This document shows positions 1-17,239 of a DNA stretch of 64,000 nt, piece by piece. The translations under genes and the position numbers were made by a program. Source of the DNA: Paracoccus tegillarcae (GTDB lineage: Bacteria; Pseudomonadota; Alphaproteobacteria; Rhodobacterales; Rhodobacteraceae); contig NZ_CP025408.1 of the NCBI RefSeq assembly GCF_002847305.1, positions 1,881,001 to 1,945,000 of the forward strand, given 5' to 3'. The notes beneath the pieces were generated by a model. It was not told the DNA's origin. It ran no database searches and worked only from the letters and a program-made list of their open reading frames with translations. Positions within the stretch are counted from its first letter, which is position 1. Each line of letters starts with the position of its first letter.

Positions 1-657
1 TTCGGTGATGGCGCCGATGTCGGCACGCCGCATTTCTTCGACGCGCGAGAGGGCGGCACTGCCAATCTGGGCGGTTCTGGCTGGGTCGAGGTGGACGGCA
101 CCCGCTTTGCGCTGGCCAACCGTGATTGCCTGTATATCGGGCGCGGTGCCAAGGCCGTCCGGTTGGGCAGCGATGATCCGCGGCAGCCTGCGCGCCTCTA
201 TCTGAACTCGGTTCCTGCCGGGGCCGATCATCCGACCCGTGCGATCACCCGTGCGGAATCGAAGCCGATAGAGTTCGGCCAGCGTGAGCGCGGCAATTTC
301 CGGCAGTTGCGCATGTATATCCATCCGCAGGTCGCCCCGTCTTGTCTGCTGCTGATGGGGATCACTGATTTGCCGGAAGGACAGGTCTGGAATACCCAGC
401 CCCCGCATCTGCATGAACGGCGGATGGAGGCCTATTGCTATTTTGATCTGGCGCCCGAAGATCGTGTCTTTCACTTCATGGGCCGGCCCGACAACACCCG
501 CCATCTGGTTGTGCAGAACGGCGATGTGGTGCTGTCGCCCGCCTGGTCGATCCATATGGGCGCGGGCACCGGGCGTTATGGCTTTGTCTGGGGGATGACC
601 GGCGAAAATCAGGCCTATGAAGACGTTGACCCTCTGCCTGTGAGTGCGCTGCGATGA
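1..657 (+). CDS. kduI: 5-keto-4-deoxyuronate isomerase (4-deoxy-L-threo-5-hexosulose-uronate ketol-isomerase), 5' end missing
   Basis: The frame is open from base 1, so the N-terminus (roughly 60 residues compared with the usual ~278-residue family) lies off the left edge; 218 codons remain. KduI is a cytosolic cupin-fold metalloenzyme that isomerises the 4-deoxy-5-keto-uronate released from unsaturated uronate sugars into 2,5-diketo-3-deoxygluconate. The metal ligand run H-x-H-x4-E is visible in HLHERRMEAYCYF (about bases 406-445), and a further His follows in SPAWSIHMGAG. The stop overlaps the next start as ATGA (654-657), so the two genes are translationally coupled and co-transcribed with the ABC importer downstream. 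Family assignment is secure; whether its substrate here is the classical one is not shown by the sequence. Confidence 0.93.
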   Translation, partial: FGDGADVGTPHFFDAREGGTANLGGSGWVEVDGTRFALANRDCLYIGRGAKAVRLGSDDPRQPARLYLNSVPAGADHPTRAITRAESKPIEFGQRERGNFRQLRMYIHPQVAPSCLLLMGITDLPEGQVWNTQPPHLHERRMEAYCYFDLAPEDRVFHFMGRPDNTRHLVVQNGDVVLSPAWSIHMGAGTGRYGFVWGMTGENQAYEDVDPLPVSALR

Positions 658-3089
658 CACTCAACCCCGGCGATGCGCTGCGATATTGGCAGGTCTCGGA
701 CGTGGTCGTGGACCGCTATGATGTGGCCGACGCGCCCCTGCTTGGCGAAATGGATCCGTTCTTTTTCCTGACCAAGGACAAGAACTTCATCCCGCATGAA
801 TATCCCTGCCGCACCGAATTCGCGGCGCAGTACCGCGACAAGCGGCCCGATCAGCGTGGTGTGGCGAAATGGGCCGTAAACGCGCTGCCCTTTGGTCAGG
901 ACATGCTGGATCTGTCGGGCTTCTGGTTTCGGCCCACGCGGCTGGCGGCCTGGGCGCGGACGGTGATCCTCGCGGATGATGCCGGTCCCGCGCGGTTGCG
1001 GCTTACGACCTGCGGTGGCGCGATCCTGTTTGTGAACGGGACAGAGGCCGGCTGGATGGCGCCCTATCTGCGCAACTACAACGGCGGTGCCGAGTTCGAG
1101 GTCGATCTGCGCGCAGGCCAGAACGAGATCACTGTCTTCTTTGACGATCTGGCCGAGCGTGACACGCGGTTCCTGTTCCGGCTGGACTGGCTGGATGGCC
1201 CAACCGCCACGGCCGGTCTGCCGTTTGACGCACCCGATGCGACGGTTCGTTCGGTCGAGACGCTACTGGAACAGATGCATTTCGACCGCCCCGCCTATGA
1301 TGATGGCGAGGTGGTGCTGGTCCTGCCCTCGCCCTTGGGCGCAGAGGGCTCTGCCGCCGTGGTGATCGAGGGCGACTTTATGTCGCACGAACGAATGGAC
1401 CGACGCTATCCTATAACGGCGGATCAAACGCGGCTGGTGCTGGGTCATGTCACCGACTTCCCCGCCGACTTCCGCCATTTCCGTATCACGCTGACCCGCG
1501 ACGGCTTTGCCGCCACCCGCACCCTGGGCGTCGAGATCGCACATCCCGATGGTCCGGCACCTGCGGCGCAGGCCGACCGCGTGGCCGAGGCGCTGGAGGC
1601 TGTTGCTGACAAGGCCGAGCCCGATACGGTCTGCGCACTGGCACGACTGGCGACGGGGCGTCCGGCTGATGACATGATCCTGCGCGTCCTGCCGACCATC
1701 AAGGATTGCTGGGATTGCGCCGATTTCGCGCTGGTGCCGCTGCTGTGGTCGCGGATGCGCTTTGCTGACCGGGTGCAGCCCGAAACGCTGGCCCAGATCG
1801 ACGACACGATCCTTGCCTATCGCTATTGGATGGATGAGCCGGGCAATGATGTGCAGTGGTATTTCAGCGAAAACCACGCGCTGCTGTTTCATACCGCCGC
1901 CTATCTGGCCGGTCATATCCTGCCTGACGCGACCTTCCGTCGGTCCGGGCGTGATGGTCATGCGCAATCCGCCGTCGGTGCCGAACGGGTGCGCGCCTGG
2001 CTGGATCATTTCGAGGCCTGCGAGATGGCCGAGTTCAACAGCGCGCCCTATTTTCCCATCGACCTCAAGGGGCTGTGCGCCTTGTTCGCGCTGGCATCCG
2101 ATGCCGATATCCGGGACCGGGCAGGCAAGGCGGTGGCGCGGCTGATCGAACTGGTGGCCAATAGCGCGCATCAGGGCGTGCTGACCGCCGCGCAGGGGCG
2201 CAGCTATGAACATACGCTGCGCGCCGGGGCGACGCTGGAACTGTCGGCCATCGGGCGGATGCTTTGGGGGCAGGGCCATTTCGGCGCGCGTTTCCATTGC
2301 CTGCCGCAACTGGCGTTGTGCCTGCGCGATCACAGTCTGGAACTGCCGGATCTGAGTGACCGCGCGCTGTGGGATCGGGACGGCGGGCAGGAATGGTGCT
2401 TTAGCCAGGGCGAGGGGCGTTTTGCGCAGCTTTATCACTGGAAAACGCGCGATACGGCGATGGGATCGGCCGCGCATTACCGTTGGGGTGACTGGGGTTA
2501 TCAGGAAACGCTGATCCATGCCCGCATCGGTCGCAACCCGCAGGCGCAGGTCTGGATCAACCAGCCGGGCGAGTTGATCCAGTCGGGCTATGGCAGGCCG
2601 TCCTATTGGGGCGGCTCGGCCAGCGTCCCGCGCGTGCAGCAATATCGTGGGCTGGCAGTCGTGCTGTTCGACGGCGTGGCGCCGCAGCCCGATCTGACCC
2701 ATGCGTGGTTTCCAGAAAGCATGTTCGACGCCGCGCGGGTCGAAGACAACGTCGCGATGGCTACGGCGCAGGGCGCAGGGCTGTTGCTGGTCGCCTCGGG
2801 TCCTCTGTCGCGCGTGAGCGAAGGGCCAAGTGCGGGCAATGAATTGCGGCTGGAGGGTCGCGATGGCCGCTGGATCGTCCGCCTGACCGAAGGGGCAGAC
2901 GATCTGGACGGGTTGCGCGATCGTTTTGGCAAGCTGTCATTGATCGAAAAGCCGGATGGCCGCATTCTGGTGACGGATCCGGATTACGGCAGCGTCATCT
3001 TCTGCCCCGACGGAACGGTGGAGGCAGAAGGACGCAAACTTGACCCGTCCCAATGGACTGTGGAGGGTCAAAGAACGATCACCTCGTAG
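654..3089 (+). CDS. Uncharacterised 811-residue protein, probable carbohydrate-active enzyme (beta-sandwich plus alpha-toroid)
   Basis: I do not recognise a named family. Residues about 90-190 read like a jelly-roll sugar-binding or accessory domain (alternating beta strands with a VNG turn, as in several glycoside hydrolase families). The middle, about 330-560, is helix-rich with WYFSENHALLFHTAAYLAG, a WLDHF stretch and GRSYEH, a pattern reminiscent of (alpha/alpha)-toroid hydrolases and lyases. The C-terminal 200 residues look beta-rich again. There is no signal peptide, so it should act in the cytoplasm on an imported sugar. It is coupled to kduI by an ATGA overlap and sits 40 bp before the binding-protein gene, which starts with its own GGGAGGAGAG ribosome site. 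A glycoside hydrolase or lyase role is inference from architecture and neighbours only. Confidence 0.85.
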   Translation: MTLNPGDALRYWQVSDVVVDRYDVADAPLLGEMDPFFFLTKDKNFIPHEYPCRTEFAAQYRDKRPDQRGVAKWAVNALPFGQDMLDLSGFWFRPTRLAAWARTVILADDAGPARLRLTTCGGAILFVNGTEAGWMAPYLRNYNGGAEFEVDLRAGQNEITVFFDDLAERDTRFLFRLDWLDGPTATAGLPFDAPDATVRSVETLLEQMHFDRPAYDDGEVVLVLPSPLGAEGSAAVVIEGDFMSHERMDRRYPITADQTRLVLGHVTDFPADFRHFRITLTRDGFAATRTLGVEIAHPDGPAPAAQADRVAEALEAVADKAEPDTVCALARLATGRPADDMILRVLPTIKDCWDCADFALVPLLWSRMRFADRVQPETLAQIDDTILAYRYWMDEPGNDVQWYFSENHALLFHTAAYLAGHILPDATFRRSGRDGHAQSAVGAERVRAWLDHFEACEMAEFNSAPYFPIDLKGLCALFALASDADIRDRAGKAVARLIELVANSAHQGVLTAAQGRSYEHTLRAGATLELSAIGRMLWGQGHFGARFHCLPQLALCLRDHSLELPDLSDRALWDRDGGQEWCFSQGEGRFAQLYHWKTRDTAMGSAAHYRWGDWGYQETLIHARIGRNPQAQVWINQPGELIQSGYGRPSYWGGSASVPRVQQYRGLAVVLFDGVAPQPDLTHAWFPESMFDAARVEDNVAMATAQGAGLLLVASGPLSRVSEGPSAGNELRLEGRDGRWIVRLTEGADDLDGLRDRFGKLSLIEKPDGRILVTDPDYGSVIFCPDGTVEAEGRKLDPSQWTVEGQRTITS

Positions 3090-3129
3090 CCGTTGAGCCG
3101 CGGGGGAAACCAGGGAGGAGAGACGACAA

Positions 3130-4404
3130 ATGCAAAAGATACTCAGCATCGCGGCGACTGCGTCCGCGCTGGCCATTGCGGCTTCGGCGCAGGCGGGCGA
3201 CGTGCGCATCATGTGGTATTCCGACGGGATCGAGGGCGAGGTCATGCAGGATCTGCTTGACCGTTTCTCAGAGCAGAACCCCGATATTAACGTGACACTG
3301 GACAATGTGGCCTATCAGGTCATTCAGGAACAGTTGCCGATCCAGCTGGCCGCTGGCGAGGGCCCCGATATCGCGCGGGTCACCAACCTCAAGGAACAGG
3401 CCGATCATTGGCTGGACCTGACGCCCTATATCGAAGATCCGGCCTATTGGAACGAGAATTTCGGTGACCAGTTCGACTGGATGCGCCCCGATGACACCGA
3501 GATCATTCCGGGTTTCATGACCCAGCTGACGCTGGTCGGCGGCTTTGCCAACAAGACGCTGTTTGAACAGGCCGGTGTCGAGATGCCGGGCGAGGGCGCG
3601 ACCTGGGAGGACTGGGTCAATGCCTCGACCGAGGTGCAGGAAAGCCAGCAATTGCCGGCGGCCTTTGTCATCGACCGTTCGGGCCACCGGATCACCGGGC
3701 CGATGATTTCCTATGGTGCGCAATTGAAGGGCGAAGATGGCAAGCCCGCCCCGCTGGATGCGGCGGCGCAGGAGTTCATCACCCAACTGGTCGGCTGGAC
3801 GGAAAGCGGCCAGCACATGAAGGATGTCTGGGTCAGTGCGGCCGGTACGACCTATCGCGCTGGTGCGGATGAGTTCATCAACGCCAATATCGCCTTTTAC
3901 TATTCGGGCTCGTGGCAGGTGGCGAACCTGACAACCAAGATCGGCGACGGGTTTGATTGGGTCGCGACCGGATCGCCTTGCGGTGCGGCGGGATGTTCGG
4001 GTCTGCCGGGTGGCGCGGCGTTGGTCGCCAACAAGAACACCCAGAACCCCGAGGATGTTGGCAAAGTCATGGATTACCTGGCCAGCACCGAGGTGGTGAA
4101 GGAATTTACCGAACGCACGCTGTTCCTGCCCGCGCATCAGGGCGTGATCAAAGCCGGCGATCTGGATTTCCAGACCGATGACGCGAACGCCAAGGCGGCC
4201 CTGGAGGTGTTTGTCGCGGCAACCGGCGATCTGCTGCCCGAAGCCAATGCGATCCCGGCATGGCGCTATGCCAATGCCGTTTATGGCGGGATGGTCAGCC
4301 GGATCAGCCAGGCCATGGCTGGCGAAATGCCGGTGGCCGATATCTTTGCCCGCATCGATAACGACATAGCCGAGCAAGTCGCCGCGGCGGACGCAGGTCA
4401 GTGA
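3130..4404 (+). CDS. Sugar ABC transporter substrate-binding protein (family 1), candidate sulfosugar-binding protein
   Basis: A 424-residue extracytoplasmic solute-binding protein of the MalE/UgpB class. Residues 1-22 form a Sec signal peptide ending SAQA, followed by the mature start GDVRIMWYSDG. It would capture a mono- or oligosaccharide in the periplasm and deliver it to the two permeases that follow. A Cys pair (GSPCGAAGCSG, near residue 290) could form a disulfide in the periplasm. A strong GGGAGGAG site precedes the ATG, and the stop overlaps the permease start (ATGA at 4401-4406 region). Because the neighbouring monooxygenase and reductase resemble SmoC and SmoB, this may be the SmoF-type sulfoquinovose-binding protein; that specificity is inference and not legible from the protein alone. 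Confidence 0.92.
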   Translation: MQKILSIAATASALAIAASAQAGDVRIMWYSDGIEGEVMQDLLDRFSEQNPDINVTLDNVAYQVIQEQLPIQLAAGEGPDIARVTNLKEQADHWLDLTPYIEDPAYWNENFGDQFDWMRPDDTEIIPGFMTQLTLVGGFANKTLFEQAGVEMPGEGATWEDWVNASTEVQESQQLPAAFVIDRSGHRITGPMISYGAQLKGEDGKPAPLDAAAQEFITQLVGWTESGQHMKDVWVSAAGTTYRAGADEFINANIAFYYSGSWQVANLTTKIGDGFDWVATGSPCGAAGCSGLPGGAALVANKNTQNPEDVGKVMDYLASTEVVKEFTERTLFLPAHQGVIKAGDLDFQTDDANAKAALEVFVAATGDLLPEANAIPAWRYANAVYGGMVSRISQAMAGEMPVADIFARIDNDIAEQVAAADAGQ

Positions 4405-5396
4405 TGCAGCGGGGCGTCTCATACTGGGTGATGGCGCCCCTTCGCTGGCTGGCGCGGATGGCCGATGTGCCGCTGCGCGCCTGGCAACGCTTGACCGGAC
4501 AGGGCGGCATGATCGCCCTGTTCCTGCTGCCCAATATGGCGATCTTCACCGTTTTCGTCCTTGTCCCGCTGGTCATGAACGCGCTTTATTCGACCACCGG
4601 CGGGGTCGAGTTCTTTCTGGCGGACCGCCCCTATATCGGGTCCGACCACTATCAGCGCTTGCTGGATTGCGGCAGCTATCTGGACCCGCTGAGCTGCCGC
4701 GACGACATGTTCTGGACCGCCGTCTGGAACACCGCGCGCTTTGTCATCTTTCAGGTCGGCTCGATCATTCTGGTGGCGATGATCACCGCACTGATCCTGA
4801 ACCGCGCCATCCCCGCCAAGGCATTCTGGCGCGCCGTTTTCTTCTTTCCGGTTCTGCTGAGCCCGGTTGTTGTCGGCCTGATCTGGAAATGGATCCTGCA
4901 ACGTCAGGGCCTGGCCAATCTGGGCATGGTCGAACTGGGGCTAGAGCCGGTCAACTGGCTCACCGAACGATTCTGGGCCTTCGTCGCCGCAGTGGGCGTC
5001 AGTGTCTGGGCGCATATGGGGTTCTATACGCTGATCCTGCTGGCCGGTTTGCAGGCGATCCCGCGCGATCTTTATGAGGCGGCCGAAATGGACGGCACCC
5101 CGCCGTTTCGCGTCTTTTACCGCATCACCCTGCCGCTGCTGATGCCCAATCTGCTGGTCGTTCTGGTGCTGGCGCTGATCCGTGCCGTTCAGATCTTTGA
5201 CGAGGCCTATGTGTTGACAGGCGGCGGGCCGGGCACCTCGACCATGTTTATCACGCAATATATTTACGAGGTCGGTTTCGCCAATCTGCTGCGCAATCCG
5301 GGGCTTGCGGCTGCGGCCTCTATCCTGATGGCGGGGGTTCTGGTCGTGCTGACGCTGATCCAGCTATGGCTGAGCCAACGGGCGGGGAAACGCTGA
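4404..5396 (+). CDS. Sugar ABC transporter permease (MalF-type)
   Basis: A 330-residue inner-membrane permease with about six hydrophobic segments, the first near residues 35-60 (ALFLLPNMAIFTVFVLVP). The cytoplasmic EAA loop that docks the ATPase is intact: LYEAAEMDGTPPFRVFYRI followed by TLPLLMP. It pairs with the next permease to form the membrane channel of the importer. I chose the ATG at 4404, which overlaps the upstream stop by four bases; a GTG three bases earlier is the alternative. The downstream permease start overlaps this stop in the same way, so binding protein, both permeases and ATPase are translationally coupled. Confidence 0.93.
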   Translation: MQRGVSYWVMAPLRWLARMADVPLRAWQRLTGQGGMIALFLLPNMAIFTVFVLVPLVMNALYSTTGGVEFFLADRPYIGSDHYQRLLDCGSYLDPLSCRDDMFWTAVWNTARFVIFQVGSIILVAMITALILNRAIPAKAFWRAVFFFPVLLSPVVVGLIWKWILQRQGLANLGMVELGLEPVNWLTERFWAFVAAVGVSVWAHMGFYTLILLAGLQAIPRDLYEAAEMDGTPPFRVFYRITLPLLMPNLLVVLVLALIRAVQIFDEAYVLTGGGPGTSTMFITQYIYEVGFANLLRNPGLAAAASILMAGVLVVLTLIQLWLSQRAGKR

Positions 5397-6445
5397 TGCG
5401 CTGGCTGGTCGCGAGACGCGGGAAAACCGGTGATGGCCGCGGTTGGCACTGGACCGATATCGCCACCTGGATCTGGTTGATCGGCGGCACGATCCTGATG
5501 TTCGGCCCGGCGCTGTGGCTGGTTCTGTCCAGCTTCAAGACACCCGCCGGACTGGCCGAGTTTCCGCCCACCCTGTTGCCCTATACGCAGCAGACCGTTC
5601 AGGTGGATGGTGCCGAAAAACCACTGTTCACCGTGACGCTGGAAGATGGCAGCGAAAAGACCATGGCGGAACTGCGCCGCGTGGGCATCGTTGCGCAGAT
5701 GGTCGATCCCGACGCGCCCGAGGACGAGGTGCTCCGCGTCAATATCTCAGAGCGCACGCCCATTCGCGAGGTTCGCTTTGCGCTGGAAAACTATACCCAG
5801 CCTTTCCTGCAATTCGACTTTCTGCTCTATCTGCGCAACTCGGTCTTTGTGACCCTCATGGCCACGCTGATCACGCTGCTGACCAACTCGATGGCGGCGT
5901 TTGCCCTGTCGAAATATGATTTCCGTGGCCGAAATGCGGTGATGCTGCTGATCATCGCCACGCTGATGGTGCCGCTGTCGGTGATCCTTGTGCCGCTCTA
6001 TTCGGTGGTCTCGGCGACCGGGCTGCTGAACAGCCTCTGGGGGGTGATCCTGCCCACGGTTGCCACGCCGACAGGGGTGTTCCTGCTGCGCCAATACATG
6101 CTGACCATCCCCGACGAGTTACTGGACGCGGCGCGGATGGATCACGCAAGCGAGTGGCAGATCTATTGGCGCATAGTCCTGCCGCTGGCTGCGCCGGCCT
6201 TGGCGGTGCTGGCGATCTTTTCGGTCGTGTGGCGGTGGAATGATTTTCTGTGGCCGCTTGTCGTGCTGTCGCGCAAGGAACTTTACACATTGCAGATCGG
6301 GCTGAACACCTATGCGGGCGAGCTGAACGTCCAGTGGCACTTTATCCTTGCGATGACCGTGGTTGCGATGATTCCGGTCGTGCTGGTCTTCGTCTTTCTT
6401 CAGCGCTTTATCACCGCAGGCATTGCCGGAACGGGACTGAAATAA
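5396..6445 (+). CDS. Sugar ABC transporter permease (MalG-type) with an enlarged first periplasmic loop
   Basis: A 349-residue inner-membrane permease. The EAA loop is LLDAARMDHASEWQIYWRI followed by VLPLAAPALA, confirming the carbohydrate-importer class. Between the first membrane segment (about residues 22-45) and the second (about 145) lies an extra ~80-residue hydrophilic stretch rich in acidic residues, larger than in E. coli MalG-type proteins. The ATG at 5396 overlaps the previous stop (ATGA); an upstream in-frame ATG at 5366 would lengthen the protein by ten residues but lies inside the first permease. The stop overlaps the ATPase start (TAATG at 6443-6447). Confidence 0.92.
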   Translation: MRWLVARRGKTGDGRGWHWTDIATWIWLIGGTILMFGPALWLVLSSFKTPAGLAEFPPTLLPYTQQTVQVDGAEKPLFTVTLEDGSEKTMAELRRVGIVAQMVDPDAPEDEVLRVNISERTPIREVRFALENYTQPFLQFDFLLYLRNSVFVTLMATLITLLTNSMAAFALSKYDFRGRNAVMLLIIATLMVPLSVILVPLYSVVSATGLLNSLWGVILPTVATPTGVFLLRQYMLTIPDELLDAARMDHASEWQIYWRIVLPLAAPALAVLAIFSVVWRWNDFLWPLVVLSRKELYTLQIGLNTYAGELNVQWHFILAMTVVAMIPVVLVFVFLQRFITAGIAGTGLK

Positions 6446-7422
6446 TGGGTCAGATCGAGCTGCAGAACATCGTCAAATCATTCGGCACGGTCGAGGTGAT
6501 CAAGGACATCTCGCTGACCATTCCCGAGGGTGAACTGGTCGTTTTCGTTGGCCCCTCAGGTTGCGGGAAATCGACCTTGCTGCGGCTGATCTCGGGGCTG
6601 GACCAACCGACATCGGGCAGCGTGATGATCGACGGGCAGGATGTGACGCGGCGGTCGGCTGCGGATCGTGGGCTGGCAATGGTGTTTCAATCCTACGCCC
6701 TTTATCCGCATATGTCGGTGCGCCAGAACATGGCGTTCGGGCTGGAAAACACCAGCATGCCAAAGCCCGAGATTACCGCCCGCATCGAGGACTCGGCCCG
6801 CATGCTGGAAATCGAGGCGCTGCTGGATCGCCGCCCCGGCCAACTGTCCGGCGGTCAGCGCCAGCGGGTCGCCATTGGCCGTGCAATTGTCCGCGAACCA
6901 ACGGCGTTCCTGCTGGATGAGCCGCTGTCCAATCTGGACGCGGAATTGCGGGGCACCATGCGGGCCGAGCTGGCCGCGCTGCATGGCCGCTTGGGCAAGA
7001 CGATGATCTATGTCACCCATGACCAGATCGAGGCCATGACGCTGGCCGACCGCATCGTCGTGCTGCGCGGCGGTGTGGTGGAGCAGGTCGACACGCCGCT
7101 GAACCTGTTCAACGCGCCTGCCAACCGCTTTGTCGCGGGCTTTATCGGTGCGCCCAGGATGAACTTTCTGACGGCGCCCGATGGCCGCACCATGGGCATC
7201 CGCCCCCAGCATCTGCGCCTTGGTGAAGGCGGCATGACGGTCACGGTCGAGATGGCTGAAAATCTGGGCGCGGAAACGCTGATCCACGCCCGCACCGACA
7301 AGGGCGAGCAGATACTGGCAATGCTGCCGGGTCAGATACAGCCTGAACGCGGCGAGACACTATCGCTGACCCATGATGCCGCTGATGCGCATTGGTTCGG
7401 AGAAGACGGCCTCAGGCAGTAA
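6445..7422 (+). CDS. Sugar ABC transporter ATP-binding protein (MalK/UgpC family)
   Basis: A 325-residue cytosolic ATPase that powers the preceding importer. Walker A is GPSGCGKST (about residues 36-44), the ABC signature is LSGGQRQRVAIGR, Walker B is AFLLDEPLSNLD and the switch His is in YVTHDQIEAM. The last ~100 residues form the short OB/TOBE-type regulatory domain usual for MalK relatives, though shorter than in E. coli MalK. I start it at the ATG of 6445, overlapping the permease stop; upstream in-frame codons lie inside the permease gene. It is the last gene of the plus-strand operon, which meets the convergent aldo/keto reductase gene only three bases later. Confidence 0.95.
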   Translation: MGQIELQNIVKSFGTVEVIKDISLTIPEGELVVFVGPSGCGKSTLLRLISGLDQPTSGSVMIDGQDVTRRSAADRGLAMVFQSYALYPHMSVRQNMAFGLENTSMPKPEITARIEDSARMLEIEALLDRRPGQLSGGQRQRVAIGRAIVREPTAFLLDEPLSNLDAELRGTMRAELAALHGRLGKTMIYVTHDQIEAMTLADRIVVLRGGVVEQVDTPLNLFNAPANRFVAGFIGAPRMNFLTAPDGRTMGIRPQHLRLGEGGMTVTVEMAENLGAETLIHARTDKGEQILAMLPGQIQPERGETLSLTHDAADAHWFGEDGLRQ

Positions 7423-7425
7423 CCT

Positions 7426-8319
7426 TCAGGGAACCTCGTGGCCCAGTGCGGCCTCGTAAAGCCAGAACCAATCCTTGCGGTCCAGCGTGATCCGCAGCGC
7501 GTCTGACAGGCGTGCGATCCGTTCGATCCGATTGGTGCCCATGACCGGGATGATCCCCGCCGGATGCGCCAACAGCCATGCCACGGCAATGGCCGCCGGA
7601 TCGACGCCATGACGCTCGGCCAGTTCGCGCAGCCGCTCGGTCAGGCGCGGTTGTGCGGCGGCCATCAGGCTGCCACCACCAAGGGGGGACCAGGCCATCA
7701 CGGTCATTCGCTGGCGCTGCAGATAAGCCAGATCGCCATTGGCAAAGGCGTCGTGCGCGGACAGGTTCAACTCTATCTGATTGACGGCCAGGCGTTGCGT
7801 CATCCGGCTTTGCAGCAGATCGACATCCCAGGGCCGAAAATTCGACACGCCGACAGATCGCACCTTGCCGCTGTCCACCAACCCGTCCAGGGCCGCGCCG
7901 GTCGCATCGGCATCCATCAACGGATCGGGGCGATGCAGCAGAAGCAGGTCGATCCGGTCGGTTGCCAGATCGCCAAGGCTGCGTTCGACGGCGGCGGTGA
8001 TATAGGCGGGCGAGGTGTCGTAGTGTTTGACCCCGGCATCCGCGTTACGCCCGATCGGGGCGACGATGTCGCATTTCGTCACCACTTCGCAGCGATCGCG
8101 CAATCCCGGCGATGCGCGAAAGGCCGCTCCCAGCAGCGCCTCGCCTGCATAGTCGCCGTAGATATCTGCGTGGTCCAGCGTGGTGATGCCCTGTTCCTGA
8201 CAGGTTTCGATCTTGCGCTGTACATGTGCGGGCGAGGTGTCGGCATCGTCGCCCAAGCGCCACATGCCATAAACGATGCGGCTGACATCCAGCCCATCCG
8301 CGATCTTGACCCGTTCCAT
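7426..8319 (-). CDS. smoB: Aldo/keto reductase, candidate 6-oxo-glucose reductase (SmoB-like)
   Basis: A 297-residue NAD(P)H-dependent aldo/keto reductase of the YdhF/SmoB type. The catalytic tetrad is complete: D49, Y54, K82 and H129 (motifs LDHADIYG, VTKCD, LLLLHRPDP). The C-terminal cofactor segment GIIPVMGTNRIERI is also intact. In the sulfo-SMO pathway the SmoB reductase converts 6-oxo-glucose, made by the monooxygenase, to glucose. The gene overlaps the monooxygenase gene by an ATGA junction (8317-8321), so the pair is co-translated, which supports a shared pathway. Family membership is certain; the specific substrate is inferred from the pairing. It converges tail to tail with the importer operon. 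Confidence 0.85.
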   Translation of the reverse strand: MERVKIADGLDVSRIVYGMWRLGDDADTSPAHVQRKIETCQEQGITTLDHADIYGDYAGEALLGAAFRASPGLRDRCEVVTKCDIVAPIGRNADAGVKHYDTSPAYITAAVERSLGDLATDRIDLLLLHRPDPLMDADATGAALDGLVDSGKVRSVGVSNFRPWDVDLLQSRMTQRLAVNQIELNLSAHDAFANGDLAYLQRQRMTVMAWSPLGGGSLMAAAQPRLTERLRELAERHGVDPAAIAVAWLLAHPAGIIPVMGTNRIERIARLSDALRITLDRKDWFWLYEAALGHEVP

Positions 8320-9476
8320 CAGCGGCGTTCTCCGGTTCCCAGTGGCGTGGCGGGCATGCCTGCCGGCACGCGGCCATATGCATGGGGCAGTGAGCAGGTT
8401 TTCAGATGTGGCATGACCAGCCGGCCGAAATGTTCAGCCTCGTCCATATGCGGATAGCCCGAGAAGATGAAGGCACGGATGCCCATGCGGCGGTATTCCT
8501 CGATCTCGGACAGGATCTGATCGGCTGATCCGACCAGCGCCGCCCCGCAGCCAGATCGCGCCCGCCCGATGCCCGTCCACAGATGCGGCTCGACATAGCC
8601 GAACTGATCGGCCAGTTCCCGCGCGCGGGCCTGATGCGAAACGCCAAGGCTGCTGGCATCATGGGCGCGTTCGCGGATCAACCGGCCATATTCGTCATCA
8701 AGCTTGGCCACCAGATGGTCTGCATATTCCCGCGCTTCGGCCTCGGTGTCGCGCACGATCATATGGACGCGCAGCCCGTAATCCAGCGTTCGGCCATGTG
8801 CGGCGGCGCGCGCATTCACCGCGCGCATCCGTTCGGCGATCTGGTCCTTGGGTTCTGGCCACATCAGATAGACGTCGCATTGCGCCCCGCACAGTTCCAG
8901 CGCGTCGGGCGAGTAGCCGCCGAAATACAGCAGTGGCCCGCCGTTTTGCTGATAGGGCCGGGCAGGCTCCGTGGGGACATTCTGGAACTGATAGATCTCG
9001 CCCTGATGGTTGATCTCGTCCTGTGTCCAGGCCTGACGCAGGATCTGCACGACCTCGTGGCTGCGGCGATAGCGATAGGCGCTGTCTTCCTTTTGGCCGG
9101 CGAAATCACTGCTGATGACGTTCAGCGTCAATCGCCCCTCCAGCATATGGTCCAGCGTGGCGATGGCGCGGGCCAGCATGATCGGCTGCACCTCGCCCAT
9201 GCGGATCGCGGCCAGCAGATTGATCCGCTCGGTGATCGGCGCGCAGCCGGCGACGAAGCTCAGCGTGTCCTGCCCGACCTGATAGGATGAGGGGCACAGC
9301 ACATTGCGGAACCCCAGATCCTCGGCGCGCTGGACAATGCTTGAGCAGTGTTTCCACGAGGAACGCAGATCGCCGTCGGGCACCCCCAATTGGCGGTAAT
9401 CATCAGAACAAAGTGCGGCGAACCAAGAGACTTCGCTGGCATCCAGATCTGCCGAGGTGACGGGAACGATGGTCAT
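8319..9476 (-). CDS. smoC: LLM-class FMNH2-dependent monooxygenase, SsuD/SmoC type (candidate sulfoquinovose monooxygenase)
   Basis: A 385-residue luciferase-like flavin monooxygenase. The residues that form the sulfonate pocket in SsuD are kept: R236 and H238 (GLRVHMIVRDTEAEA) and Y341 and H343 (SGYPHMDEAEHFG), corresponding to SsuD R226, H228, Y331 and H333; W206 (YLMWPEPKDQ) is also present. Such enzymes use FMNH2 and O2 to cleave a C-S bond, giving an aldehyde and sulfite; for sulfoquinovose the product is 6-oxo-glucose. Partnering with an aldo/keto reductase and a sugar importer favours SmoC over a general alkanesulfonate enzyme. No flavin reductase (SmoA) is visible in the window, so it must come from elsewhere. 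It is divergent from the GntR gene and probably controlled by it. Confidence 0.86.
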   Translation of the reverse strand: MTIVPVTSADLDASEVSWFAALCSDDYRQLGVPDGDLRSSWKHCSSIVQRAEDLGFRNVLCPSSYQVGQDTLSFVAGCAPITERINLLAAIRMGEVQPIMLARAIATLDHMLEGRLTLNVISSDFAGQKEDSAYRYRRSHEVVQILRQAWTQDEINHQGEIYQFQNVPTEPARPYQQNGGPLLYFGGYSPDALELCGAQCDVYLMWPEPKDQIAERMRAVNARAAAHGRTLDYGLRVHMIVRDTEAEAREYADHLVAKLDDEYGRLIRERAHDASSLGVSHQARARELADQFGYVEPHLWTGIGRARSGCGAALVGSADQILSEIEEYRRMGIRAFIFSGYPHMDEAEHFGRLVMPHLKTCSLPHAYGRVPAGMPATPLGTGERR

Positions 9477-9503
9477 CGGCGCCCTCCTGCGCTTTTTCCT
9501 TGC

Positions 9504-9524
9504 TTACCTTCGGTGATCGGGTAA
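9504..9524. promoter_or_regulatory. Palindromic operator candidate between monooxygenase and GntR genes
   Basis: A 21-bp interrupted palindrome, TTACC-N11-GGTAA, lies in the 75-bp divergent gap and is centred at 9514. Just beside it the hexamer ATCAAT occurs twice 11 bp apart (9525 and 9536). GntR/UTRA repressors commonly bind short inverted repeats of this size in divergent promoters, so autoregulation together with control of the monooxygenase pair is plausible. The symmetry is visible in the sequence; binding is inference. Confidence 0.5.
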
Positions 9525-9551
9525 ATCAATAATATATCAATTCGAGAGATC

Positions 9552-10253
9552 ATGCCGCAATCCGCCCCGCTTCCTGCCTATCTGCGACTGGCCGAGACCT
9601 TCGGGCGCGATATCGCGTCGGGCCGGCTGAAGGATGGTCACAGACTGCCGCCGGAACGCGAGATGGCGGCGGATCAGGGTGTTGCCGTTGGCACGCTGCG
9701 CAAGGCGCTGGCCGAGCTGGAAACGCGCGGGCTGCTGATCCGCAAACATGGGTCCGGCAACTATGTCCGGGCCCATGGCCGCGCGGTCGGCGTTTATGCG
9801 CTGTTCCGGCTGGAACTGATCGAGGGCGGCGGATTGCCGACGGCCGAACTGCTGTCACTGGAACGATGCGCCAAGCCGGCGGATCTGCCAGCATTCGGCG
9901 ACGGACCCGACGCCCATCGCATTCGCAGGTTGCGTCGGCTTTCGGGACAGCCGGCCAGCGTCGAGGAAATCTGGCTGTGTGCATCCTACGCGGATCGGCT
10001 GGATCGGGGCACCTTGTCGGAATCGCTGTATCTGCACTATCGGCGGCATCTGGGCCTGAACATCATCCGCGCCGAGGATCGGGTCGGGCAGGAGGTCCTT
10101 CCTGACTGGACGCCGGCAACATTCGGGATGTCGGCCGGCGCGCCGGCCCCGCAGGTGCTGCGCCTGTCCATCGCCGATGACGGGCGTGTGGCCGAGATCT
10201 CGCGCAATTGGTTCGATCCGGGCATCGCCCGCTATGTGGCGAGGTTGGCATGA
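9552..10253 (+). CDS. GntR-family transcriptional regulator with UTRA domain
   Basis: A 233-residue cytosolic repressor. Residues about 5-75 form the winged helix-turn-helix, with the classic GntR features LPPEREMAADQGVAVGTLRKAL and GLLIRKHGSGNYV. The remainder matches the UTRA ligand-sensing fold (HRIRRLRRLSG, VEEIWL, the VGQEVLPDWTP segment) that binds sugars or sugar phosphates in HutC-type regulators. It is divergent from the monooxygenase/reductase pair and overlaps the Gfo/Idh gene by ATGA. It most likely senses the imported sugar or an intermediate and derepresses the locus; the ligand is not determinable from sequence. Confidence 0.93.
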   Translation: MPQSAPLPAYLRLAETFGRDIASGRLKDGHRLPPEREMAADQGVAVGTLRKALAELETRGLLIRKHGSGNYVRAHGRAVGVYALFRLELIEGGGLPTAELLSLERCAKPADLPAFGDGPDAHRIRRLRRLSGQPASVEEIWLCASYADRLDRGTLSESLYLHYRRHLGLNIIRAEDRVGQEVLPDWTPATFGMSAGAPAPQVLRLSIADDGRVAEISRNWFDPGIARYVARLA

Positions 10254-11377
10254 TCAGATACGGCATCATCGGGTGCGGCATGATGGGGCAAGAGCATATT
10301 CGCAACATCGCCCTGTTGCCCGGCGCTATGGTGGCCGCTTATGTCGAACCCGATGCGGCGATGGCGGCCAGGGCCGCAAACCTGTTGCCCGATGCGCGTC
10401 GCTGTGCGTCGGTATCGGATTTGCTGGATCAGCCCATTGATGCGCTGCTGATCGCCAGTCCGAACGACCTGCACCTGCCACAGATAGAGGTGATCGCGAC
10501 CCGGCGCCCGCTGCCGTTGCTGGTGGAAAAGCCATTGTTCACGGCGCCCGATCAGGCCGCACGGCTGGCGGCACTGGCCGATTATCCCGCGCCGGTCTGG
10601 GTGGCGATGGAATATCGCTATATGCCGCCCATTGCCCGGCTGATCGCCGAGGCAGATGCGGTGACGGGTGGCATCAGGATGCTCACCATCCGCGAACACC
10701 GTTTTCCATTTCTGGACAAGGTCGGCAACTGGAACCGGTTCAACACCCGCAGCGGTGGCACAATGGTCGAGAAATGCTGCCATTTCTTTGACCTGATGCG
10801 ACTGATCCTGCGCGATGATCCGGTGCGGGTGATGGCCAGCGCCGGGCAGGCCGTGAACCATCTGGACGAGCGTATCAACGGGCGTCCGCCCGATATCTGG
10901 GACAATGGTTATGTGATCGTCGATTTCGCGCGTGGCGCCCGCGCCATGCTGGAATTGTGCATGTTCGCCGAGGGCGCGCGCTATCAGGAACAGGTGTCGG
11001 TGATCGGCGCGGATGGCATGATAGAGGCCCATGTGCCCGGCCCCTCACGGTTCTGGCCCGCCGATCTGGGGCCGCCGCCGGTGGCGCAGGTCATCGCCAG
11101 CCCGCGCCATCCCAAAGGCCCGCAACTGATCGAGATCCCCGTCGATCCGGCCTTGCTGGCGGCGGGTGATCATAATGGTGCGACCTATTGGCAGCATCGG
11201 CGCTTTGTCCAGGCGCTGCAGGGTCAGGCCCCGGTCGAGGTGACCCTGCAGGATGGCTGGTGGGCGGCCGCGATGGGCATGGCCGCGCAACTGTCGGCGC
11301 GAACGGGGCAGGCGGTTGATATTGCCGGACTGGATTTCGTTCCCAGGACCAGCCAGTTCGCCGCATCGGTCGCGTGA
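10250..11377 (+). CDS. Gfo/Idh/MocA-family NAD(P)-dependent oxidoreductase, candidate NAD-dependent sulfoquinovosidase
   Basis: A 375-residue protein with an N-terminal Rossmann domain (GIIGCGMMG at residues 5-13), the family EKP motif (E93-K94-P95) and the C-terminal alpha/beta sheet domain with GGTMVEKCCHFFD, giving the H178-x2-D181 pair. Members oxidise sugars at C3 or, in CAZy families GH109, GH179 and GH188, hydrolyse glycosides by transient oxidation with bound NAD. GH188 enzymes release sulfoquinovose from its glycosides. With no GH31 sulfoquinovosidase in sight, this protein is the best local candidate for that step, but a plain dehydrogenase role is equally compatible. Start at 10250 overlaps the GntR stop; an earlier in-frame start at 10208 lies within that gene. 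Confidence 0.87.
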   Translation: MIRYGIIGCGMMGQEHIRNIALLPGAMVAAYVEPDAAMAARAANLLPDARRCASVSDLLDQPIDALLIASPNDLHLPQIEVIATRRPLPLLVEKPLFTAPDQAARLAALADYPAPVWVAMEYRYMPPIARLIAEADAVTGGIRMLTIREHRFPFLDKVGNWNRFNTRSGGTMVEKCCHFFDLMRLILRDDPVRVMASAGQAVNHLDERINGRPPDIWDNGYVIVDFARGARAMLELCMFAEGARYQEQVSVIGADGMIEAHVPGPSRFWPADLGPPPVAQVIASPRHPKGPQLIEIPVDPALLAAGDHNGATYWQHRRFVQALQGQAPVEVTLQDGWWAAAMGMAAQLSARTGQAVDIAGLDFVPRTSQFAASVA

Positions 11378-11384
11378 CGGGCGC

Positions 11385-11762
11385 TTACTCGGTCGCGTGG
11401 CCGTTATCGACCAGCCATTGTTTCATCATCGCGATTTCGGCTTCTTGTGCCGCGATCACCTCTTCGGCCAGCGCGCGGATCTCGGGGTCTTTACCGTGCT
11501 CAAGAACGATTTGGGCCATGGCGACGGCACCCTCGTGATGGGGGATCATGCCAAGGACGAAATCGGCATCTGCATCGCCGGTCGGCTCGATCATCATGTC
11601 TTCGTGCATCTGGGTCATCGCCTCGGCATAGGCTGCCGATGAATCGCCCTGCATCGTGGCCATGTCATGGCCCTCATGGTTGCTGTCCTGCGCATAGGCA
11701 CCAAAGGCCAGCGCGAAGAGAATCGGGCTGAGTGCGGCGACGCGAATGGTCTTGCGGGTCAT
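11385..11762 (-). CDS. DUF305 family periplasmic protein
   Basis: A 125-residue exported protein. A signal peptide covers about residues 1-24 (MTRKTIRVAALSPILFAL, ending AYA). The DUF305 hallmark D-x2-F-x2-G-MIPHHEGAVAMA is intact at about residues 66-84, followed by the helix containing AAQEAEIAMMKQW. The family is a small ferritin-like helical bundle rich in His and Met; some members (CopM) bind copper in the periplasm, others have no known role. It stands alone, converging with the Gfo/Idh gene and with 90 bp of upstream sequence before rsmD. Metal binding here is an inference from the HH and Met-rich motifs. Confidence 0.9.
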   Translation of the reverse strand: MTRKTIRVAALSPILFALAFGAYAQDSNHEGHDMATMQGDSSAAYAEAMTQMHEDMMIEPTGDADADFVLGMIPHHEGAVAMAQIVLEHGKDPEIRALAEEVIAAQEAEIAMMKQWLVDNGHATE

Positions 11763-11852
11763 GTTTTCCCTCGTGCTTTTATCGTGCTGTTATTGCGGGC
11801 TCATGACAACAAAATTGCCTGTCAAAGCAAGCGGATCAGCGATCAAGCCTCG

Positions 11853-15737: not shown

Positions 15738-16703
15738 TTAAAGCGCCAAACGCTGCCGAGCGGCGGCGTATTCGTTGGCCAGACGGTCCACCAGTTCGGC
15801 CGCTGGCAAGACCTCGCTCACCGCGCCGATGCCTTGTCCGCAGCCCCAGATCGTGCTCCAGGCTTTGGGCTTGGACGCGCCTTGGCCGAAATCCATGCTG
15901 CTGGCATCGGCGCGTTCCAGCGCCTCTGGGTCCAGCCCTGCATTGCGGATCGACGGAGCGAGGTAGTTGCCCGAAACGCCAGTGAACAGCGATGATGTGA
16001 CGATATCCATCGCCCCGGACTCGACGATCATCTGCTTGTATTCGGGCTGGGCGTTTGCCTCGGTCGTGGCGATGAACGGGCTGCCGATATAGGCCAGATC
16101 GGCCCCCATCGCCTGCGCCGCCAGCACCGCATCGCCGGTGGCAATCGCGCCTGACAGCAGCAGCGGGCCGTCGAACCATTCGCGGATCTCCTGGATCAAT
16201 GCAAAGGGCGATTGCGGGCCGGCATGGCCGCCAGCGCCGGCAGCCACGGCGATCAGGCCGTTGGCGCCTTTCTCGATGGCCTTTCGGGCGAACTTGTTGT
16301 TGATGATGTCGTGCAGCGAGATGCCGCCGCAGTCATGGGCCGCGTCGTTTACTTCCTTGCGTGCGCCAAGCGAGGTGATCCAGATCGGTACCTTGTAGCG
16401 GTGGCAAATCTCGATATCGCGTTCGAGCCGCGCGTTGCTGCGATGGACGATCTGGTTGACGGCGAAGGGCGCGGCGGGCTGGTCGGGATTGGCCTGATTG
16501 TGGCGGTCCAGCTCTTCGGTGATGCGGGTCAGCCATGCCTCGAGCATGATCGGTTCGCCATCCTTTTCGCGGGCGTTCAGCGCCGGAAAACTGCCGACGA
16601 TGCCGGCCTTGCATTGCGCGATCACCAGATCAGGGTTCGAGACGATGAACATGGGCGATCCCACGACCGGGATACGCAGGTTTTGCAGGATGGGTGGCAG
16701 CAT
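15738..16703 (-). CDS. NAD(P)H-dependent flavin oxidoreductase / nitronate monooxygenase family protein
   Basis: A 321-residue FMN-binding TIM-barrel protein. Motifs visible are the N-terminal PVVGSPMFIVSNPDL, the LIAVAAGAGGHAGPQSPFAL stretch that includes the conserved His and FMN-phosphate glycines, and LLSGAIATGDAVLAAQAMGADLAYIGSPF. Family members oxidise nitronates or act as NADH:quinone reductases or enoyl reductases; the physiological substrate is undetermined. The ATG at 16703 is favoured by the GGGAGA site just upstream and by the family N-terminus; the frame is open further up without coding character. Confidence 0.9.
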   Translation of the reverse strand: MLPPILQNLRIPVVGSPMFIVSNPDLVIAQCKAGIVGSFPALNAREKDGEPIMLEAWLTRITEELDRHNQANPDQPAAPFAVNQIVHRSNARLERDIEICHRYKVPIWITSLGARKEVNDAAHDCGGISLHDIINNKFARKAIEKGANGLIAVAAGAGGHAGPQSPFALIQEIREWFDGPLLLSGAIATGDAVLAAQAMGADLAYIGSPFIATTEANAQPEYKQMIVESGAMDIVTSSLFTGVSGNYLAPSIRNAGLDPEALERADASSMDFGQGASKPKAWSTIWGCGQGIGAVSEVLPAAELVDRLANEYAAARQRLAL

Positions 16704-16892
16704 GGCGGTCTCTCCCTTGACGTTCGCGGCAACTATGCGGTGGCAGATGCCGGCCCGCAAGAGTGACGTCGCGCCCGCTGCGCAGAGCATTGGCGTGCCG
16801 TTAAGCTTTGAGCGGCGCACCAAGCGTGCGGTGGGGGCGCAACAGTGCAACACCCTGGCCCGCGAAAATGCCAGCGTTTACTGGGTTTCATG

Positions 16893-16953
16893 CCGCACAG
16901 CACGTACACCGCGCGTGCACAGGGCGTACACAACCTGTACACAGGCTGCGCAC
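16893..16953. repeat. 11-bp phased direct repeats (GTACAC iterons)
   Basis: Hexamers ending in CAC recur every 11 bp exactly: CCGCAC at 16893, GTACAC at 16904, GTGCAC at 16915, GTACAC at 16926, GTACAC at 16937 and GCGCAC at 16948. The four central copies are the best. Spacing of one helical turn places every copy on the same DNA face, as in iterons bound by multimeric regulators or ParR-type partition proteins. The pattern is directly visible; function is unknown. Confidence 0.75.
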
Positions 16954-17239
16954 CTGCGGTTAGGGATGTGTTAGCGAATGGGGGCGGATTGCGCAGGGAG
17001 GCGTTGCGCCGCTCTGCCAGCTGTGCTTGCCGCATCTGACGCGCGCCTGCTCTGAGCCCACCTTGACCGATGTGACGCACGGATGACTGCTATCACGAGA
17101 GTGCCGAAAACCTTCAACAACCATACAGGTTTTGAATGGCGTTCGTGGCACGGTCAATCGGAGCGACTTGCCCCTGTTCAAAAAAGGAGCGTTTTTAGAT
17201 CGTGCGGACCCGTTCCCTGTCAACCTAGTGTCTAAGAAT

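Follow-up and report, generated by a model that had tools for sequence, protein, structure and literature searches.

Two converging transcription units

The DNA analysed here is a 64,000-nt stretch of the Paracoccus tegillarcae chromosome (hereafter the window, numbered from its first letter), in which the feature under study, a set of genes for sulfoquinovose catabolism by the sulfo-SMO (sulfoquinovose monooxygenase) pathway, lies within 3130–11377. An initial annotation had treated that interval as one locus, and its reading frames are indeed present at the positions given. However, the stretch is made up of two transcription units facing each other, with 3 bases between the stop of an ATP-binding cassette (ABC) ATPase gene, where a plus-strand uronide operon ends (7422), and the end of the minus-strand smoB (7426). 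We consider it very probable that 7426–11377 is a sulfo-SMO catabolic core and that 1–7422 is the downstream portion of a different operon, linked to LacI and serving uronides, two units that the title of the initial annotation had merged. The features are as follows.

1–657, plus strand: 3' part of kduI, encoding 5-dehydro-4-deoxy-D-glucuronate isomerase (NCBIfam equivalog NF002091, 357.6 bits, cut-off 250; PF04962)
654–3089, plus strand: U811, an uncharacterised 811-residue protein of the uronide module, predicted as a lyase-like toroid with a C-terminal beta domain (AlphaFold2 model and fold matches)
3130–4404, plus strand: ABC solute-binding protein, not of the SmoF type (SBP_bac_1; alignments and tree, see below)
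4401–5396, plus strand: ABC permease 1 (PF00528)
5366–6445, plus strand: ABC permease 2 (PF00528)
6445–7422, plus strand: ABC ATPase (PF00005 and PF08402), its start overlapping the permease stop
7426–8319, minus strand: smoB, predicted 6-oxo-glucose reductase of the aldo/keto reductase type (best structural match 7bby/7bbz; tetrad present)
8319–9476, minus strand: smoC, predicted sulfoquinovose monooxygenase (matches to 7olf and 7oh2; catalytic residues)
9525–9542, plus strand: predicted smo operator/promoter element, direct repeat ATCAAT-N5-ATCAAT (exact match; conserved in the spacers of other loci)
9552–10253, plus strand: GntR/UTRA protein, the likely smo regulator (PF00392 and PF07702; 145 of 148 distinct SmoC loci have an orthologue)
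10250–11377, plus strand: sqgA, predicted GH188 NAD+-dependent sulfoquinovosidase (matches to 8qc2 and 8qc3; residues conserved)

The gene order of the core is thus sqgA-gntR | smoC-smoB, with gntR and smoC divergent. smoC and smoB overlap by 1 nt at a junction reading TGATG, not ATGA as had been stated; ATGA is the junction of gntR with sqgA and of kduI with U811. The complete sugar ABC importer described previously was recovered (SBP_bac_1, two BPD_transp_1, ABC_tran and TOBE_2), as were the domains of the GntR/UTRA regulator beside the core.

The sulfo-SMO core and its direct repeat

In a search of the Protein Data Bank (PDB), the 8319–9476 product gave 751 and 750 bits over 384 residues with 7olf and 7oh2, which bear generic names there and which we take to be SmoC of Rhizobium and Agrobacterium; the next best entry reached 213 bits, and SsuD (1m41) 201 bits. 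The 7426–8319 product likewise gave 419 bits with 7bby/7bbz, presumably SmoB, and 222 bits with the next entry. All residues cited earlier for the monooxygenase (W206, R236, H238, Y341 and H343) and for the aldo/keto reductase tetrad (D49, Y54, K82 and H129) are present. Independent support for the identity of SmoC comes from the genomic company of its orthologues, which show 83% identity in L020 and L021 (Agrobacterium and Rhizobium) and lie beside a GH31 gene; these smo loci also carry a binding-protein family whose L020 member gave 694.6 bits with 7nbz, named sulfoquinovosyl glycerol-binding protein SmoF. As judged from sequence, the two enzymes are SmoC and SmoB, and the sulfo-SMO route proposed in the initial annotation is upheld by these scores and by this company. 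Action on another sulfonate, as in the alkanesulfonate use of SsuD, is very improbable: SsuD residues are conserved in SmoC and the NCBIfam SsuD models match it below their cut-off (250 of 518 bits), but the placement with SsuD that had been named as grounds for abandoning the assignment was not observed, the bit scores above led to the rejection of this reading, and SmoC is usually accompanied by SmoB and by a GH188 sulfoquinovosidase, SqgA (161 of 169 loci, a count that includes short-flank loci and a few genomes seen twice). Both SmoC and SmoB are encoded within a 10-ORF (open reading frame) window, the criterion for a sulfo-SMO cluster in PMC13372026.

In the scan of the genome collection, the best 80 of 187 SmoC relatives were kept. 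The commonest layout of smo loci is sqgA-gntR | smoC-smoB-flavin reductase, with the genes of a DctQMP importer of the tripartite ATP-independent periplasmic (TRAP) type coming next; the flavin reductase occurs in 137 of the 169 loci. No such gene lies at the present locus, as the initial annotation had noted, and the check to the left of base 1 that it had proposed was negative as well, since the single match to PF01613 (flavin reductase) genome-wide is ~1.27 Mb away, matching the nearest of 8 SmoA-like proteins at 25% over 112 residues. The core thus has no linked flavin reductase SmoA. PMC9594981 describes some sulfo-SMO clusters without a linked flavin reductase, so that linked SmoA is not a required feature. 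In 16 loci, some of them truncated, no smoB could be recognised within 3.5 kb of smoC (L008, L009, L010, L012, L014, L015, L016, L027, L057, L093, L095, L099, L157 and L178, together with L034 and L103, where the contig ends); oxidation of 6-oxo-glucose to glucuronate is one guess at its fate there. Among the relatives of the genus, G429 and G407 lack a recognisable smoB next to smoC, whereas G450 and G352 have SmoC, SmoB and the ABC importer discussed below without a smo TRAP.

The gene at the right end of the core, overlooked in the initial annotation within its own interval, encodes a Gfo/Idh/MocA protein that gave 376 bits with 8qc2, 374 with 8qc3 and 527 with 8zn9, the last named merely a putative oxidoreductase. 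According to the data statement of PMC10755693, 8qc2 is FlSqgA and 8qc3 is ArSqgA. The catalytic and sulfonate-binding residues of ArSqgA listed in that paper (Lys107, Tyr136, Arg166, Lys172, Glu189, His193 and His321) are identical in the window protein (K94, Y122, R151, K157, E174, H178 and H308) in a pairwise alignment to 8qc3, numbered from the ATG at 10250 with an offset of 13 counted by hand; the searches used an in-frame start at 10244, and Glu163 of the same paper was not placed unambiguously. These matches identify the product, at the level of sequence, as a GH188 NAD+-dependent sulfoquinovosidase. The earlier remark that GH31 sulfoquinovosidase is missing holds for the whole genome, in which PF01055 has no match, but not in the sense of lacking any sulfoquinovosidase: the GH31 or GH188 enzyme expected of a sulfo-SMO cluster is here GH188. 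Because PMC10755693 reports GH188 in sulfo-SMO clusters and includes a record from Paracoccaceae when illustrating them, the core in the window is not new, and its enzymes are already known and ordinary in kind.

Between gntR and smoC lies a direct repeat with an 11-bp period. Divergent smoC and gntR were found in 159 loci other than the window, representing 151 distinct spacers, and ATCAATANTNNATCAAT was present at ≤2 mismatches in 151/151 of them, 68 being exact. The exact copy at 9525–9542 is the sole match in the 64 kb for the 18-letter pattern at ≤3 mismatches (0.48 expected by chance), a 17-letter form giving a further 3-mismatch match at 10436 inside sqgA; the element was absent from the left 15.5 kb. 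Off-site copies numbered 3 in 2.95 Mb of smo loci: L020 and L021 each have one just upstream of an ATPase-SBP (solute-binding protein) transporter operon, and in L011 the copy separates sqgA from an SBP operon. In L030 the smoC and gntR genes do not adjoin; both are accompanied by a copy, and the smoB region contains one more match. The element may be the GntR operator or part of overlapping promoters, and the repeat at 9525–9542 is a predicted GntR binding site. Literature found for sulfoquinovose and GntR held nothing on this regulator, as far as titles and the starts of abstracts tell.

Two weak element-like matches, L218:17338 and L220:6006, were rejected as importer sites, since neither adjoins an importer. 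L220, from the same genome, encodes at 4751–11650 a repetitive protein of 2299 residues whose end resembles an autotransporter, a description drawn from the appearance of the sequence alone.

The uronide operon and the importer

The plus-strand operon has the order LacI | GH105-kduI-U811-SBP-permease 1-permease 2-ATPase. Its first gene, GH105, lies left of the window (L005, ~10745–11824) with lacI divergent, and kduI starts ~180 bases left of the window (near 11821 of L005); beyond lacI are genes for 3-oxo-tetronate kinase and class II aldolase. GH105 (NF051900 BglB and PF07470), KduI and OtnK all exceed their NCBIfam cut-offs. We infer from this content that the operon serves a uronic-acid-containing oligosaccharide. 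The module is intact, and either ≥59 kb from smo or on another contig, in 4/4 relatives fetched at both places (G407, G352, G429 and G450). Within the genus, 121 genomes gave SmoC in 37, U811 in 16 and both in 12, the two being apart in 10 of these 12; in a family sample they were apart in 7/9 and adjacent in G000 and G165. Since the module stands apart from smo in most genomes holding both, the ABC importer, KduI and U811 are not sulfo-SMO genes, and kduI and U811, which the initial annotation had placed in the smo operon, belong to the LacI-linked one.

U811 had no Pfam or NCBIfam match, and a PDB profile search returned one chance match only. Its AlphaFold2 model (pLDDT 88.4, pTM 0.89) shows weak fold matches to glycosaminoglycan lyase, dermatan sulfate epimerase and PL17 over 374–434 residues, and the best 50 Foldseek rows were nearly all GH2 at low TM, with one alpha-L-rhamnosidase and no lyase. 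N407, H408 and Y466 are invariant in 58 alignment rows, in a spacing that resembles the Asn/His-Tyr pair of PL17 and heparinases. The family is large (relatives P0002–P0120), most listed members having 806–848 residues and the named ones being alphaproteobacterial; with its predicted lyase-like toroid, it is a candidate new polysaccharide lyase family. A class-wide search of 289 genomes matched the genome of the window alone and therefore says nothing of Rhizobiales. The idea that U811 marks SmoC genomes was dropped, because the binding protein tracks the importer pattern better: G362 and G418 have U811 and a smo TRAP but not this ABC importer. Near the smo clusters of L088, L216, L162, L183, L214 and L072, too, there are genes of uronate chemistry, either GH105/U811-like or encoding UxuA (mannonate dehydratase), the latter assigned by Pfam in L088 only.

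The initial annotation had proposed SmoF with ABC partners as the importer. The alignment to SmoF that it called for gave 21% identity over 347 columns with the L020 protein, as against 41% with an SBP of a smo operon, and no SmoF structure was matched at E ≤ 0.001 although 7nbz was in the PDB copy searched; SmoF identity is thereby ruled out. No SmoF-type binding protein lies in the cluster, the rest of the genome not having been searched for SmoF. In a tree, the window protein falls among SBPs of uronide modules, those of smo operons (L030, L181, L075 and others) and of UxuA operons form a neighbouring clade, and SmoF is far out.

That sulfoquinovose enters by a transporter encoded elsewhere in the genome, the ABC importer serving uronides only, is in our estimate nearly an even possibility. 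The module is present in the SmoC-negative genus genomes G351, G393, G404 and G451, with LacI in all but G404. Moreover, G362, G418, G088 and G143 have the module without this ABC importer and with TRAP-like genes (24–42% to smo DctP/DctM) in or beside it, so that importers can be swapped in this module and accompany its uronide genes. However, no second copy of the element was found near a transporter in the ~0.48 Mb (some 12%) of the genome scanned, and this explanation does not account for the exclusion between smo TRAP and this ABC importer in the genus, described below. As a separate observation, L135 (from G404) has, next to its ABC module at ~16260–17133, the smo GntR in two pieces together with a degenerate element, and neither smoC nor sqgA was found; this looks like a relic of the arrangement in the window.

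Alternatively, the ABC importer of the uronide operon may carry sulfoquinovose or sulfoquinovosyl glycerol here, taking up both acidic hexosides in place of the TRAP system that other members of the genus have, a proposal that is plausible though we lean against it. Among 36 SmoC-positive genus genomes with readable flanks (G378, where the contig runs out, was excluded), 26 have an adjacent smo TRAP and this SBP in 0/26, whereas 9 of the 10 without TRAP have the SBP (Fisher 1e-7); the remaining one, G372, has instead an ABC importer of the SmoF type at 50%. (Its cluster, L102 from 11200 onward, carries a SmoC that is sister to those of the window and of G453.) No smo-type DctP was matched at E ≤ 1e-40 genome-wide in any of the 10 TRAP-less genomes, that of the window included, while one match was obtained in 5/5 TRAP-positive control genomes, one of which, G423, was the source of the query (100%). 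In 148 distinct SmoC loci (14 left out for a short flank), TRAP was found in 85, this SBP family within 9.5 kb in 29, the SmoF type in 2, none in 32, and TRAP together with the SBP in 0; as this set is biased by loci fetched for U811 (L087, L093–L096 and L128–L134) or for the SBP (L212–L216), the counts without them are TRAP 83, SBP 24 and both 0, of 133. In L030 and L181 the smo operon itself includes a relative of the SBP, and in L011 such a relative adjoins a smo operator.

Several observations weigh against this shared importer. Neither the window nor L005 has a smo operator upstream of the ABC module, none occurs away from gntR in the other module loci scanned (≤2 mismatches), and the window SBP clusters with those of uronide modules rather than those of smo operons. 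Two genomes from other genera, G175 and G303, combine smo TRAP with the ABC module; in G175 the SBP frame is interrupted by one internal stop. Lineage-corrected contrasts are few: of 3 starred pairs in the genus, 2 were opposite and 1 equal, and of 7 in the wider set, importers were opposite in 3.2 and equal in 3.8 on average (median p 0.25), so that tests of the exclusion that respect descent have little power.

The general form of the proposal, in which one importer serves two acidic sugars and the uronide ABC importer, also carrying sulfoquinovose or its glyceride, has repeatedly replaced the smo TRAP, we hold to be rather doubtful; if true, it would explain the mutual exclusion in the genus and the recurrence of uronide operons beside smo clusters. 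A bolder form has both operons digesting one conjugate that bears uronate and sulfoquinovose. Among the papers listed for sulfoquinovose and glucuronate, none described a joint operon in its title or the start of its abstract, and the one listed for sulfoquinovose and TRAP transporters concerned a taurine-respiring gut bacterium. The neighbouring ABC importer is the sole named candidate for sulfoquinovose uptake.

Proposed route and comparison with known systems

Presumably, sulfoquinovosyl glycerol, once imported, would be hydrolysed to sulfoquinovose by SqgA, with NAD+ used catalytically at C3. SmoC, with O2 and FMNH2 from an unlinked flavin reductase, would then convert sulfoquinovose into sulfite and 6-oxo-glucose, which SmoB would reduce to glucose. 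Both transcripts are most likely under the control of the divergent GntR/UTRA regulator, acting at the direct repeat. In the uronide operon, the ABC importer would bring in an oligosaccharide, U811 would probably cleave it as a lyase, GH105 would remove the unsaturated uronate, and KduI would isomerise it.

The window thus adds a Paracoccus genome to the bacteria predicted to use all six carbons of sulfoquinovose; the additions of interest are the conserved DNA element and the importer exclusion. The near-invariant element allows the smo regulon, unlinked importers included, to be searched for in any genome. Moreover, sulfo-SMO clusters have different transporters in the importer position, so that the importer cannot be named from membership of the cluster alone.

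Among known systems (further sources: PMC12890257 and PMC12421959), the uronide operon shares GH105 (PF07470), the KduI equivalog, a sugar ABC importer and a LacI regulator with GH105/KduI unsaturated-uronide modules, to which it adds U811, of an 800-residue family outside the Pfam and NCBIfam models. The core shares the order sqgA-gntR | smoC-smoB with the GH188-containing sulfo-SMO clusters of Rhodobacterales (PMC10755693); in the loci analysed here such clusters mostly go on to a flavin reductase and TRAP (TRAP in 85 of 148), whereas the window is without both and has an ABC operon facing smoB. Compared with the Agrobacterium-type sulfo-SMO pathway (sulfo-ASMO), the window has GH188 instead of GH31, no linked smoA and a binding protein other than SmoF, but SmoC, SmoB and GntR are present in the same divergent layout and with the same DNA element.

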